Both the position numbers and the translations under genes were made by a program. Below are positions 15,476 through 21,306 of a DNA stretch of 64,000 nt, piece after piece. The stretch's first letter is position 1, and every line of letters begins with the position of its first letter. Source of the stretch: Pseudanabaena sp. UWO311 (lineage in GTDB: Bacteria > Cyanobacteriota > Cyanobacteriia > Pseudanabaenales > Pseudanabaenaceae); contig NZ_SJEE01000003.1 in NCBI RefSeq assembly GCF_006937785.1, positions 186,001 to 250,000 of the forward strand. Reading direction: 5' to 3'. The notes beneath the pieces are model-generated. The model saw only the letters and a list, made by a program, of their open reading frames with translations. It had not been told where the DNA came from and did not search any database.

Positions 15476-15540
15476 ACCAAGAACTCAAGTTCTTTGCTAA
15501 AAGCTCAAGTCCACTGAAGTGGACTAAAGAATACTGTTAA

Positions 15541-15685
15541 TTAACCCGTTTCAACGGGTTTAAGCTTTTATAGCAATATCTAGAGATGAGTGGCAGCGCT
15601 TCGCGCCGCCACTCATCTTTTGGTTTTTATGTCCTGAGCAAAACTTACATTGCTATAGCTTGCACTTGAGTGTAGGGCTACTGCT
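15541..15685. repeat. Family A copy 2, interrupted by a second element
   Basis: Left part 15541-15568 (TTAACCCGTTTCAACGGGTT then TAAGCTTT) and right part 15658-15685 (GCTTGCACTTGAGTGTAGGG and CTACTGCT) together match the uninterrupted copy at 14196-14252. The 89 bp between them form a separate inverted-repeat element. Confidence 0.7.
15569..15657. mobile_element. 89-bp MITE-like element with TATAGCAAT/ATTGCTATA ends, nested in family A repeat
   Basis: TATAGCAAT at 15569-15577 is the inverse of ATTGCTATA at 15649-15657. Inside is a hairpin AGATGAGTGGC (15584-15594) / GCCACTCATCT (15608-15618). TA at the borders could be the target duplication. A 63-bp element at 30543-30605 also has TATAGC/GCTATA ends. 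Confidence 0.6.
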
Positions 15686-15699
15686 TGAATAAATTTGAT

Positions 15700-15717
15700 T
15701 GTGTAAATCTTGTGCAA
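15700..15717 (-). promoter_or_regulatory. Candidate L box (RcaC-type light-colour response site) upstream of cpeC
   Basis: On the minus strand the site reads TTGCACA-AGAT-TTACACA. The L box described for Fremyella diplosiphon RcaC is TTGCACA-N4-TTGCACA, so 13 of 14 fixed bases match. It is about 205 bp upstream of the cpeC start, within the 446-bp leader between the HEAT gene and cpeC. It is bracketed by an inverted repeat TTTGATTG (15694-15701) and CAATCAAA (15721-15728). It would fit red-light repression of the operon; whether an RcaC homologue exists cannot be seen here. Confidence 0.5.
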
Positions 15718-15748
15718 AACCAATCAAAATTCACAAATCTTGATAATT

Positions 15749-15813
15749 AAGGTTACGGACATATACGAAAATCGATTATAGCAAAGCGTATAAATTACTA
15801 CGCTAGTAACCTT
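15749..15813 (+). promoter_or_regulatory. Structured leader of the cpe operon
   Basis: AAGGTTAC (15749-15756) can pair with GTAACCTT (15806-15813), enclosing a smaller hairpin AGCGTA (15785-15790) / TACGCT (15799-15804). The region sits between the L-box candidate and cpeC. Transcript start is unknown, so this may be promoter DNA or 5' leader. The rest of the 15476-15922 gap holds the family A repeat and its nested element. Confidence 0.35.
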
Positions 15814-15922: not shown

Positions 15923-16783
15923 ATGCCTTTTGGACCAGCTTCACGCTTGGGTGTCAGCCTGTTTGATGAAACTCCTCCTATTGAATCGGTACTCGGTCAA
16001 TCTTCAGGAGAAGCCGAAACGATCATTCTTGCCGTCTATCGTCAAGTACTAGGCAATGCCTATGTAATGGAGAGCGAAAGACTCGCCGTTCCTGAATCCC
16101 AATTCAAGCGCGGTGAATTGAGCGTGCGTGAATTTGTTAGAGCAGTTGCCAAATCTGATCTATACATGACACGTTTCTTCTCAAGCTGCCCTCGCTATCG
16201 TGCGATCGAACTTAACTTCCGCCATCTCCTAGGTCGCCCACCAGTAGATCTTGAAGAAATGCGTGGACATAGTACAACTCTTGATACCAAAGGGTTTGCT
16301 GCTGACATCGACACCTATATCGATAGCGATGAGTACCAAAGTACCTTTGGTGAAAACTTCGTTCCTTATATCCGTGGCTATAAGACCGAAGCTTGTCAGA
16401 CCATGGTGCAGTTTACGCATACTTTTGAATTGGTGCGCGGCGCATCTAGCAGTAGCCTCAAGGGCGATCTGTCAGGAATTACGCCTAAGCTTAATTCGTT
16501 AGTAATCAACCCCACTGCTACCGCAGTCATTTCGCCTTTTGGTAATGGCGCAACCTTCCGTAATCCTGCTGATGCACCTTTAACCCGTCGTGGTTCATTT
16601 GGTACTCCTACCAGCAAGGTTTACCGTATTGAAGTCACTGGCTACCGTGCTAAGAGCGTCAATAGCATTTCCAAGTTCCGTCGTAGCAACAAAGTTTATT
16701 TGGTGGCTTTCGACCAACTTTCTCAAGAATACCAACGCATCCACCAACAAGGCGGCGTAATTTCCAGCATCACTGCTGTGTAA
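15923..16783 (+). CDS. cpeC: Phycoerythrin-associated rod linker (CpeC type)
   Basis: 286 residues. Residues 30-165 form the phycobilisome linker domain (VYRQVLGNAYVMESERL, FVRAVAKSDLY, ELNFRHLLGRPP, YIDSDEYQSTFGE). Residues 230-284 form a CpcD-like capping domain (YRIEVTGY...YQRIHQQGGVISSI). Such two-domain proteins sit in the cavity of a hexamer and join hexamers within a rod. It is longer than the next two linkers and precedes them, matching cpeC in the cpeCDESTR operon of F. diplosiphon. AGGAG lies upstream of the ATG. A 13-bp hairpin follows the gene. The assignment to phycoerythrin rather than another rod protein rests on the downstream cpeS, cpeT and cpeR. Confidence 0.88.
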   Translation: MPFGPASRLGVSLFDETPPIESVLGQSSGEAETIILAVYRQVLGNAYVMESERLAVPESQFKRGELSVREFVRAVAKSDLYMTRFFSSCPRYRAIELNFRHLLGRPPVDLEEMRGHSTTLDTKGFAADIDTYIDSDEYQSTFGENFVPYIRGYKTEACQTMVQFTHTFELVRGASSSSLKGDLSGITPKLNSLVINPTATAVISPFGNGATFRNPADAPLTRRGSFGTPTSKVYRIEVTGYRAKSVNSISKFRRSNKVYLVAFDQLSQEYQRIHQQGGVISSITAV

Positions 16784-16921: not shown

Positions 16922-17671
16922 ATGGCAACTTTAACAGCTATCGAATTGTGGACAAATAGCAGCGCTGAAGATGTCCAAACTGTTATTCGTTCAGTTTATA
17001 AACAAGTTTTGGGCAATCCGCATGTTATGGAAAGTGAGCGCTTGACCTCAGCAGAGTCTAAGCTCGCCGATCGCTCGATCACCGTGCGTGAATTTGTACG
17101 CGCAGTTGCAAAATCTGATTTTTATCGCGATCGCTACTTCACCGCTTGTGCTCCATATAGATTTGTGGAACTCAACTTTATTCATATTTTGGGTCGCGCT
17201 CCTCAAGATCAGAACGAAGTTTCGGTACATATCGTTCGTACCGTAGCTGAAGGCTATGACGCAGAAATCGACTCCTATGTCGATAGCGATGAGTATCAAG
17301 CAGCCTTTGGTGAAAACGTTGTACCTTACAATCGCGGCACAAACAGCGCTAGTAATGCCAAGCAAATTGGCTATAACCGTATGTTTGCCCTCGATCGCGG
17401 TGCAGCCCAAATTGACAGCTCTGTCAAAGCCTCACAGCTTGTATATGCAGTCGCTACCAATAGCACCAGTGTCATTAAGCCTTCGACCTCAACCGTCATC
17501 GGTTCTGGCACTGAGAAGCGCTTCAAAATCTTGGTATCTGGTTCAAAATTTGATACTCGCCGTCGTGTCAGCACCACCGAGTACATCGTTTCGGCAAGCA
17601 AGATGACTCCCCAAATCCAACGGATTAATCGCACTTCTGGCAAGATCGTTAGTATTACCGAAGTTGCTTAA
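16922..17671 (+). CDS. cpeD: Phycoerythrin-associated rod linker (CpeD type)
   Basis: 249 residues. Linker domain at about 15-150 (VYKQVLGNPHVMESERL, FVRAVAKSDFYRDRYF, ELNFIHILGRAPQDQ, YVDSDEYQAAFGENVVPYNRG) and CpcD-like domain at 197-249 (KRFKILVSGSKF...KIVSITEVA). AGGAG is placed six bases before the ATG, a strong ribosome site. It belongs to the rod interior, joining phycoerythrin hexamers. The length equals that usual for CpeD. Strongly similar to the following gene, indicating tandem duplication of linker genes. Confidence 0.88.
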   Translation: MATLTAIELWTNSSAEDVQTVIRSVYKQVLGNPHVMESERLTSAESKLADRSITVREFVRAVAKSDFYRDRYFTACAPYRFVELNFIHILGRAPQDQNEVSVHIVRTVAEGYDAEIDSYVDSDEYQAAFGENVVPYNRGTNSASNAKQIGYNRMFALDRGAAQIDSSVKASQLVYAVATNSTSVIKPSTSTVIGSGTEKRFKILVSGSKFDTRRRVSTTEYIVSASKMTPQIQRINRTSGKIVSITEVA

Positions 17672-17805: not shown

Positions 17806-18564
17806 ATGTCACTTTGGATCGAATCAGAAACTATTGAATTGCGTCCTAACGCATCAGAAGATGATCTACAGTCTGTAATCCGTGCAGCATATCGCCAAGT
17901 ATTGGGCAATGCTCATGTGATGGAAAGCCAACGCCTAACTTCTGCCGAGTCTCAACTTCGCAACGGTGACATCTCTGTTGCTGGTTTTGTTAGAGCGATT
18001 GCCCAGTCTGAGCTATATCAATCTCTATTTTTCGAGAATTCTTCTCCCTATCGTTTTGTTGAGCTTAACTTTAAGCATTTGCTAGGTCGCGCACCTCAAG
18101 ATCAAGCTGAAATTGCTGCTCATGTGTTGACCTACAACACTCAAGGCTATGAAGCTGAAATCAATTCATACATCGATAGCGATGAGTATGTCAGCAGCTT
18201 TGGTGAAAATGTTGTACCTTCTGCTCGTGGCAATCGCACACAAGCTGGCAGCAAGAACGTTAACTTCAATCGCACCTTTGCTTTGATGCGTGGTTACGCT
18301 GCAAACGACACTGGCAAGTCCGCTAAACTGATTAGTGATCTCGCTGGCAACTTGTCTACCAAGATCGTTGCTCCTGCAAGTGGTTCTGGCTCTGCTAGCA
18401 GCCGTGGCAAGCGCTTCCGTATTTCCATCACCAAAGCTAACTTTGGTAGTCGCGTAACTCGCAGCGCAACAACCTTTGAGGTTAACTACAGTCAACTGTC
18501 TCAGAAGATCCAGAACATCCAAAAGACTGGCGGTAAAATCCTCAGCGTTACTGAAGTAGCTTAA
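17806..18564 (+). CDS. cpeE: Phycoerythrin-associated rod linker (CpeE type)
   Basis: 252 residues. Linker domain at about 15-155 (AYRQVLGNAHVMESQRL, FVRAIAQSELYQSLFF, ELNFKHLLGRAPQDQ, YIDSDEYVSSFGENVVPSARG), Ser/Gly-rich hinge near 190, CpcD-like domain 200-252 (KRFRISITKANF...KILSVTEVA). Third linker in the order expected for cpeC-cpeD-cpeE. No strong ribosome site is seen before the ATG (AT-rich leader), unlike cpeD. Two hairpins follow it, then the extra CpcD-domain gene. Confidence 0.87.
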   Translation: MSLWIESETIELRPNASEDDLQSVIRAAYRQVLGNAHVMESQRLTSAESQLRNGDISVAGFVRAIAQSELYQSLFFENSSPYRFVELNFKHLLGRAPQDQAEIAAHVLTYNTQGYEAEINSYIDSDEYVSSFGENVVPSARGNRTQAGSKNVNFNRTFALMRGYAANDTGKSAKLISDLAGNLSTKIVAPASGSGSASSRGKRFRISITKANFGSRVTRSATTFEVNYSQLSQKIQNIQKTGGKILSVTEVA

Positions 18565-18802: not shown

Positions 18803-19672
18803 ATGAAAGATTTAGATATTAATACTGCCAGCACAAATTTTGGTGCTTACAACAGTCGCCAATTCTTGATTGAGTTTACAGGCGGAAATTTTACAGAGAG
18901 ACTCCAAGGTTCTGCAACACATAAAGTTATTGTTCCCTATGGTTCACTTTCTAAAAAACTGAAAACAATCCAGAGACTTGGTAGCAAGGTTGTTAATGTA
19001 TCTATTCATCCTCAGTGCGAAGTATTAAAGGTCAATCTTGAAAATGCTTCTACTGAGCAAATCAATGAACCCATTCTTGAAATTCATCATGAGCTTTTAC
19101 CAAAAGAATCTGTTGAACAACCTATTGCTGAAACTTTAAAAAGTGAAGCTACGGAGGTTGATGAAATAACGGCAGGAGCCTTTCCCGAAGTCATTCTTCA
19201 GCCCGTCGTTGAGATTTCTCACAAAGAAGTTTCTGAAACTAATTCAGAAAATGTCTCAGCAGCACCCCAAGTAGTTATACCCAAAAAGGAAAAAGCCGTC
19301 TCTGAATCAACGCCTAGTTCCAAAAAGATAAAAGCATCTACTAAAGCCAGTCAAGGAATTAGTAAACAAAAAAGCAACTCTCAAGTTCAAGAACCGATCG
19401 CGATCGCTGAGACAGTTACAGCATCAGAGCAAGTTTTAGAGCCTGAGCCTGAAATTTTTGTTGAGACAATTAGTACGATTATTTCTGAGGCAAATGTCCA
19501 GCCAACACCTGAAGAAGTTTTGCCAACTCTTGCCAAAAACGAAGCTCAAGAACCAATCACATCATCGGTAAAGGCAAAAGCTCCCAGAAATCTGAGTAAA
19601 TCAGGTCATGGGTTTAACAAATCTAAAAGCGATGCCAAATCACCAAGATCGCCAAAGCAGCCAAAAAGTTAA
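18803..19672 (+). CDS. CpcD-domain protein with long low-complexity tail, in the cpe operon
   Basis: 289 residues. Residues 15-70 form a CpcD-like domain: SRQFLIEFTGG, then VIVPYGSLSKKLKTIQRLGS and VVNVSIHP, the same pattern as the C-termini of the three linkers upstream. There is no pfam00427-type linker domain. The remaining ~220 residues are rich in Glu, Pro, Val, Ser, Thr and Ala in the first part and Lys/Ser/Pro in the last 30, with no predicted fold and a basic end. The stop overlaps the cpeS start (TAATG), so translation is coupled. CpcD-type small linkers cap rod ends; the tail is unlike those known to me from the standard cpeCDESTR operon and may tether or bind something at the rod tip. 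Confidence 0.8.
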   Translation: MKDLDINTASTNFGAYNSRQFLIEFTGGNFTERLQGSATHKVIVPYGSLSKKLKTIQRLGSKVVNVSIHPQCEVLKVNLENASTEQINEPILEIHHELLPKESVEQPIAETLKSEATEVDEITAGAFPEVILQPVVEISHKEVSETNSENVSAAPQVVIPKKEKAVSESTPSSKKIKASTKASQGISKQKSNSQVQEPIAIAETVTASEQVLEPEPEIFVETISTIISEANVQPTPEEVLPTLAKNEAQEPITSSVKAKAPRNLSKSGHGFNKSKSDAKSPRSPKQPKS

Positions 19673-20205
19673 TGGATATTAAGGAATTTGTAGAAAGTTC
19701 GATTGGACATTGGCGATCGCAACGCAGTGCTCATCATTTAGCCTTTGGACACTTTGAATCTGTTCAATCTGAGATTGATATAATTTCACTCTCAATTGAT
19801 GCGCCAGAAGTGCTCGAGCTTTGCAAAGCTAATGATATCGATCCTAAGACAGCAGTATCACCTTTTCGGATGTCTTGGGAAGGGCAATCTGACTGGGAAG
19901 ATAGCGAAGCTATCAAAGGTAATTGCGTTTTGATCCCGATTCCCGATCGCGATCGCCCTAATTGTGGGAAGCTCATTCGCGAACTTGGATATGCAGAAGA
20001 AATGCCTGCCATTGGTGAATATAGCTTTACTGATGATGGCACATTTGTATTGGTCACCTCCTATGACCGAGCTTCAGCTGAGGAGAAAATCTGGTTTGTT
20101 AACCCAAATCTGCGTTGTCGAGTCTCATTGATTAAAACTGATACAGGAACTGGTGTTATTACTGCTTCCTTCTCTTCAGAAATTCGCCAAATATCTAAGA
20201 GTTGA
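19672..20205 (+). CDS. cpeS: CpcS/CpeS-type phycobiliprotein lyase
   Basis: 177 residues, the family length. CpeS/CpcS lyases attach phycoerythrobilin or phycocyanobilin to a specific Cys (equivalent to Cys82 of the beta subunit) of phycobiliproteins, in the cytoplasm. Family features visible: GHWRSQRSAHHLAFG at 12-26, a strand with FRMSWEG near 63, KLIRELGYAE near 103, EEKIWFVNPNLRCRVS near 140. These are parts of a lipocalin-like barrel. Translation starts inside the stop codon of the preceding gene. A MITE-like element separates it from cpeT. Confidence 0.92.
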   Translation: MDIKEFVESSIGHWRSQRSAHHLAFGHFESVQSEIDIISLSIDAPEVLELCKANDIDPKTAVSPFRMSWEGQSDWEDSEAIKGNCVLIPIPDRDRPNCGKLIRELGYAEEMPAIGEYSFTDDGTFVLVTSYDRASAEEKIWFVNPNLRCRVSLIKTDTGTGVITASFSSEIRQISKS

Positions 20206-20357: not shown

Positions 20358-20972
20358 ATGGATAAATCTGAAGTGATCTCAAATGACTTGTTTACTCTCG
20401 CACAGTGGATGGCAGGAGATTTTAGCAATTATCAGCAAGCGTCGGCTAGCCCTAAGGATTATGCGCATATTCATGTATTTTTTCGTCCTTTGCCCTTTGA
20501 GTTTTTCTCAGGGATCGGTATGTATTCCGAGCAGGTTTATGACTATGACCTTTGGACTCCATATCGGCAAGGTGTGCATCGCCTAGTCGAGCGCGATGAT
20601 CATATCTATATCGAAAACTTCAGCCTCAAAAATGCCATGTTTTATGCAGGCTCAGGGCGCAATTTAGATATTCTCAAAACTATCTCAACTGATGTAATTG
20701 AGCGACGCTATAACTGCTCAATGGTATTTAAACGAGATGGCGATCGCTTTATCGGCGGAGTTGAGGGGAATAGCTGTTTCATTGAAAAAAATGGCTGTCA
20801 AACCTATCTCGATAGCTATGTTGAAGTTACAGAAACAACTTGGTTAAGTCTTGACAAAGGCTTAGATATTAATACCCACAAGCAAGTTTGGGGTTCTACT
20901 ACTGGTCCATTAAGATTTGAAAAAAGGGAGAGCTTTGCCAATGAAGTCCCAACTATCTTACAAACTTCCTGA
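20358..20972 (+). CDS. cpeT: CpcT/CpeT-type phycobiliprotein lyase or chromophore chaperone
   Basis: 204 residues. The family is a calyx-shaped barrel that binds bilin; CpcT attaches it to Cys153 of beta-phycocyanin, CpeT serves phycoerythrin. Recognisable elements are LAQWMAGDFSNYQQA near 12, HIHVFFRPLPFEFF near 39, YSEQVYDYDLWTPYRQGVHR near 56, NCSMVFKRDGDRFIGGVEGN near 117, and WGSTTGPLRFEKR near the end. Order after cpeS matches cpeCDESTR. The 3' end overlaps cpeR by 32 bp. The MITE-like element just upstream could alter its expression. Confidence 0.92.
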   Translation: MDKSEVISNDLFTLAQWMAGDFSNYQQASASPKDYAHIHVFFRPLPFEFFSGIGMYSEQVYDYDLWTPYRQGVHRLVERDDHIYIENFSLKNAMFYAGSGRNLDILKTISTDVIERRYNCSMVFKRDGDRFIGGVEGNSCFIEKNGCQTYLDSYVEVTETTWLSLDKGLDINTHKQVWGSTTGPLRFEKRESFANEVPTILQTS

Positions 20973-21306
20973 AATCCTATTAGAGTCGAATGAAGCCAAA
21001 ATGCTGCCACCAGAAGCACAAAAGAAAATGCAATGCTGGATTCGCAGCCGACATTTAATTTGTTCGGGAAATTTCTTTGTATTTGAAAGCGTTGACTACA
21101 GTGCCGTTGAGCGGTTTGGAGAGTCTGTTGCTGCTCTGGGTGGGACTGTAATATCCGTCGATCCAGTCGGTAAGATTTGGATGGGCGATCACCGTCAAGT
21201 ACTACTCTATCGTTCCAAAGCTAGTTTGCATACTCCTCATCACCAACTAAAGCAATATTGGATCAAATATGGCAATTTTCGGACTAGATTTGACGATCAA
21301 GCCTAA
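20941..21306 (+). CDS. cpeR: CpeR-type activator of phycoerythrin genes
   Basis: 121 residues from the ATG at 20941, overlapping cpeT by 32 bp; an upstream in-frame start at 20917 is possible but the operon overlap and sequence favour MKSQLSYKLP. In F. diplosiphon CpeR, last gene of cpeCDESTR, is required to express cpeBA in green light. The family pattern is visible: QKKMQCWIRSRHLICSGNFF, SVDYSAVERFGE, SVDPVGKIWMG. It has a PP2C-phosphatase-like resemblance in some descriptions but no metal-binding motif is evident. cpeBA itself is not in this window. A family A repeat cluster follows the stop. Confidence 0.88.
   Translation: MKSQLSYKLPEILLESNEAKMLPPEAQKKMQCWIRSRHLICSGNFFVFESVDYSAVERFGESVAALGGTVISVDPVGKIWMGDHRQVLLYRSKASLHTPHHQLKQYWIKYGNFRTRFDDQA

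Follow-up and report, generated by a model that had tools for sequence, protein, structure and literature searches.

Known L-box systems and the phycoerythrin operon of Pseudanabaena sp. UWO311

In the type 3 chromatic acclimation of Fremyella diplosiphon, cpeCDESTR, cpc2 and pcyA are reportedly controlled by RcaC through the L box (Li et al. 2008, cited in PMC8256508). Another OmpR-family regulator, PhoB, acts on the 7-bp direct repeats of the pho box, which recur with an 11-bp period, and Cgi-type attenuation is a further mode of control that has been proposed for cpeC. In red light RcaC is phosphorylated, and it then activates genes with direct boxes and represses those whose box has the opposite orientation; the upstream L box of pebAB in Synechococcus PCC 7335, a green-light operon repressed in red light, has this opposite orientation (PMC8256508). 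Within Pseudanabaena itself, strain SR411 carries out type 3 acclimation, and its phycoerythrin content rises 11-fold in green light (PMC11377992).

We analyzed a 64-kb stretch of the Pseudanabaena sp. UWO311 genome (hereafter the window) in which an L box precedes a group of phycoerythrin genes.

15700-15717, minus strand: inverted L box, a predicted RcaC-binding site (from sequence and conservation)
15711-15717, minus strand: half-site TTGCACA
15700-15706, minus strand: half-site TTACACA
15923-16783, plus strand: cpeC, phycoerythrin rod linker (Pfam PBS_linker_poly and CpcD)
16922-17671, plus strand: second rod linker, cpeD by position (Pfam)
17806-18564, plus strand: third rod linker, cpeE by position (Pfam)
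18803-19672, plus strand: 289-aa protein, N-terminal CpcD domain followed by a long tail (Pfam)
19672-20205, plus strand: cpeS, bilin lyase family (Pfam CpeS)
20358-20972, plus strand: cpeT (Pfam CpeT)
20917-21306, plus strand: candidate cpeR at the operon end (by position and size; start codon uncertain)

Counterparts of cpeC that are 75-97% identical occur in 13 congeners. The candidate cpeR has no Pfam match; from gene position and what is generally known of such operons, we presume that the last gene is cpeR and that its product drives cpeBA. The open reading frame at 18803-19672 is an extra gene between cpeE and cpeS, with a rod-cap (CpcD) domain followed by a tail rich in Glu, Pro, Ser and Lys.

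On the minus strand the box reads TTGCACA-AGAT-TTACACA (plus strand TGTGTAAATCTTGTGCAA), and it matches the consensus TTGCACA-N4-TTGCACA at 13 of the 14 fixed positions and lies 205 bp before the cpeC ATG at 15923; the coordinates, strand, match and distance given in the preliminary description all proved exact on re-reading. The site belongs to an already known kind of RcaC site. It shares with the Fremyella system the same repeat, the 7-4-7 architecture, the RcaE, RcaF and RcaC proteins, and the pairing of direct boxes at red-light genes with an inverted box at the green-light operon, and it differs in the TTACACA half-site and in the location of rcaE and rcaFC on different contigs. With pebAB of PCC 7335 it has in common the opposite orientation and the predicted repression in red light, although the target operon is a different one. 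Judged from sequence, the site is very probably a true L box through which RcaC represses cpeC in red light as part of type 3 chromatic acclimation, which would place this Pseudanabaena strain in that type.

Occurrence of L boxes in the genome and among cpeC leaders

By a third-order Markov model built on the window, chance would yield about 0.016 L boxes with no more than one mismatch per 64 kb and 1.3 per 5.2-Mb genome. The 5.21-Mb genome contains four, three of which lie at cpeC, pcyA and cpc2; the pcyA box is exact, the cpc2 box has at most one mismatch, and both are in direct orientation beside rcaFC on contig C22. When two mismatches are allowed the count falls to background (38 observed vs about 52 expected), so the weight of the argument rests on the sites with at most one mismatch, and an extended regulon drawn from two-mismatch boxes across the genome was ruled out.

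The fourth of these boxes, on contig C59 (L022:5528-5545), repeats the 18-mer of the cpeC box letter for letter but is directly oriented; 166 bp further on begins a PAP/fibrillin gene, and after it comes a gene for an MscS-type channel. It is kept with one or two mismatches in three close relatives, and because about one such site per genome is expected by chance, and this one is present only in this genome and those three, we rejected it as a firm member of the regulon; the PAP/fibrillin gene is a possible red-light target. No L box within two mismatches was found near cpeBA on contig C3, and that contig carries none at all at this threshold except one at its very end.

Across the class, 28 of 102 distinct cpeC leaders contain a box with at most two mismatches, as against 0.1 expected from shuffles, and all 28 are inverted, with none direct. 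The half-sites are kept while their flanks diverge. Boxes at pcyA and cpc2 in these clades are direct, the exception being one Chamaesiphon locus with two inverted boxes besides direct ones. An alignment of related cpeC leaders, a check that the preliminary description had proposed, thus found the site conserved and inverted. The reverse orientation that it had noted is real, yet it is no peculiarity of the strain but the rule in every box-bearing cpeC leader examined. Conservation of this orientation across distant orders suggests that it is tied to repression.

Fourteen Pseudanabaena genomes have cpeC. In nine of them an inverted box with at most three mismatches stands in register with the promoter; each of the nine also has an RcaC orthologue, which in one genome contains an internal stop codon. 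Two genomes (G009 and G013) have neither orthologue nor box, two (G003 and G011) have RcaC and no clear cpeC box, and one incomplete assembly (G024) shows only a weak three-mismatch site. The association between box and RcaC is significant but incomplete: in a 68-genome sample of the class the box was found in 8 of 20 RcaC-positive genomes vs 3 of 48 others (Fisher p 0.0016), with orthologues defined by a cut-off of about 60% identity that was chosen by eye and by which three box-bearing genomes lack an RcaC orthologue. The remaining 12 RcaC-bearing genomes of the sample have no recognizable cpeC box, which indicates that RcaC does not always act at cpeC.

Core promoter, flanking dyads and spacing of the box

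Downstream of the box the cpeC leader contains the following elements.

15723-15744, no strand: imperfect dyad ATCAAAATTC-AC-AAATCTTGAT overlapping the -35, kept in cpeC leaders
15740-15745, plus strand: predicted -35 TTGATA, kept across cpeC leaders
15762-15767, plus strand: predicted -10 TATACG, kept 16 bp after the -35 (TATAAG, TGTAAG or CATAAG in relatives)
15774-15794, plus strand: conserved GATTATAGCAAAGCGTATAAA block just 3' of the -10 (from alignments)

A strict consensus promoter scan missed the TTGATA element at 15740-15745; many cpeC leaders, however, conserve a -35 (TTGATA or TTGACG) with a -10 (TATACG, TATAAG or CATAAG) 16 bp further on. A transcription start upstream of 15700 with no light-colour effect had been named in the preliminary description as a result that would speak against the box; the predicted promoter lies downstream of it.

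That description had also pointed to an 8-bp inverted repeat flanking the box (15694-15701, TTTGATTG; 15721-15728, CAATCAAA). The repeat exists, and it can be extended to 11 nt with 91% complementarity, but it is not conserved: three of the five leaders of the same spacing class disrupt it, which makes a functional dyad unlikely, and we ruled out TTTGATTG/CAATCAAA as part of the RcaC site. Its right arm partly overlaps the 15723-15744 dyad, which may be part of the core promoter or of another regulator's site.

Just upstream of the promoter region, at 15480-15570, lies a dispersed repeat of about 91 bp with paired short palindromes. About 40 copies are scattered through the genome, most of them 81-96% identical, and by its appearance it is a small non-coding element of mobile or REP-like type.

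The gap between box and -35 is 22 bp in UWO311, 11 bp in the other Pseudanabaena clade (SR411 included), 21 bp in one filamentous lineage, 10 bp in one genome, and 31-33 bp in several Leptolyngbya-like genomes and most Nostocales, the majority of the latter that were examined having 31 bp. These values group at 10-11, 21-22 and 31-33 bp, that is, at whole helical turns before the conserved -35. Taking one value per genus or clade, we obtained a helical phase R of 0.93 for a 10.5-bp period, and the Rayleigh p of about 4e-5 overstates independence because the clades were our own choice and the 11-bp step in Pseudanabaena stems from an exchange of half-sites. There the middle half-site (TTGTGCA) is fixed, and its partner is on the upstream side in one clade but on the downstream side in the other; the box has been shifted by swapping one 11-bp half-site.

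The direct box at cpc2, by contrast, has a single spacing at all loci where a box was found, with a -10-like TTTAAT element about 11 bp beyond its end. In this, in the 7-bp repeats at an 11-bp period and in the OmpR-family regulator, the system resembles PhoB and the pho box, from which the cpeC box differs in being inverted, in lying upstream of the -35 and in its presumed repressive role. We lean, by a small measure, toward the view that the inverted cpeC box evolves in whole helical turns and that repression by RcaC needs a set face of the helix and not a set distance, while activation at cpc2 keeps one spacing. If this is true, helical-turn spacing would offer a rule, open to test, by which a single regulator can be an activator at some promoters and a repressor at another. 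In the literature consulted we met no earlier description of the phasing or of its contrast with the fixed cpc2 spacing, and both may already have been reported.

These data also bear on whether the cpeC box might be a chance match or a relic, with control exerted by other factors such as the -35 dyad or a leader attenuator. Many cpeC leaders do share the core promoter and lack a box, and the 15723-15744 dyad is kept in Pseudanabaena and Nostocales leaders both with and without one, as such a reading would have it. It is nevertheless improbable given the large excess of boxes over the shuffled expectation, their one orientation throughout, their fixed helical phase and the persistence of the half-sites amid diverging flanks. 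An attenuator, such as one of the Cgi type, was set aside as less likely, since a terminator scan found no terminator-like hairpin in the cpeC leader; the leader folds moderately better than shuffles (z -2.3).

Rca proteins and the proposed mechanism

The search for RcaE, RcaF and RcaC homologues that the preliminary description had called for recovered all three in the genome. Of the refuting outcomes that it had listed, neither a missing RcaC homologue nor an unconserved site came about, and its proposal of RcaC-type light-colour control is supported. On one strand of contig C22 the order is rcaF, rcaC and, directly downstream, pcyA, which RcaC orthologues adjoin in many genomes. RcaC has the domain order REC-OmpR DBD-HPt-REC. 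RcaE is encoded on contig C28; it is 94% identical to the ULC068 RcaE, whose gene lies directly before rcaFC, and 7CKV, a solved structure of RcaE, is matched by its GAF domain at E 4e-79. The separation of rcaE from rcaFC (L021:12354-12728; L222:9842-11650) contrasts with the adjacent trio of ULC068 and lw0831, and a very close relative likewise lacks rcaE beside rcaF.

From these components we infer a relay in which phosphate would pass in red light from RcaE to RcaF and on to RcaC, whose OmpR/PhoB-type DNA-binding domain is predicted to read the L box as two 7-bp half-sites repeated directly with an 11-bp period. Phosphorylated RcaC would bind the direct boxes at pcyA and cpc2 and activate both, and on the inverted box it would repress the genes from cpeC through cpeD, cpeE, the extra open reading frame, cpeS and cpeT to cpeR, presumably transcribed as one operon. 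In green light repression would be lifted and phycoerythrin rods assembled; cpeBA, itself lacking an L box, would respond via CpeR. The direction of the light response is drawn by analogy with the scheme of PMC8256508 and with SR411, which has an inverted box of this kind at cpeC. We put the probability of the whole scheme, with the L box read by RcaC, direct boxes activated and the inverted cpeC box repressed in red light, at about 0.87.

A second relay is encoded on contig C3 (L223:1302-6331), consisting of a REC-GAF-PAS histidine kinase, two RcaF-like receivers and an RcaC-like regulator that is 42% identical to RcaC over its length. Such a paralogue, driven by its own cyanobacteriochrome-type kinase, might bind the box in place of RcaC. 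However, the closest L-box matches adjoin rcaFC, at pcyA and cpc2, and several box-bearing genomes have no paralogue above the search cut-off, which makes this even less probable than a chance match.

The motif CTTTNCNATTT, taken here as that of CcaR, does not occur in the cpeC leader, and in the 64-kb window it stands at background level. This speaks against the least probable alternative, in which the type 2 pair CcaS/CcaR mainly controls cpeC and RcaC serves only pcyA and cpc2, even though PMC11377992 cites reports of CA1-3 in Pseudanabaena species and a cpeC box is missing from some genomes with RcaC.

Two further patterns were seen among RcaC proteins. Six congeners encode a full-length RcaC orthologue (73-94% identical), and no cpeC orthologue was found in them; in these strains RcaC may thus control phycocyanin in the absence of phycoerythrin. 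Five other genomes encode RcaC-like proteins of about 400 aa that match RcaC at 77-87% identity but only over residues ~5-256, a pattern that loss or replacement of the HPt domain and the second receiver would produce.
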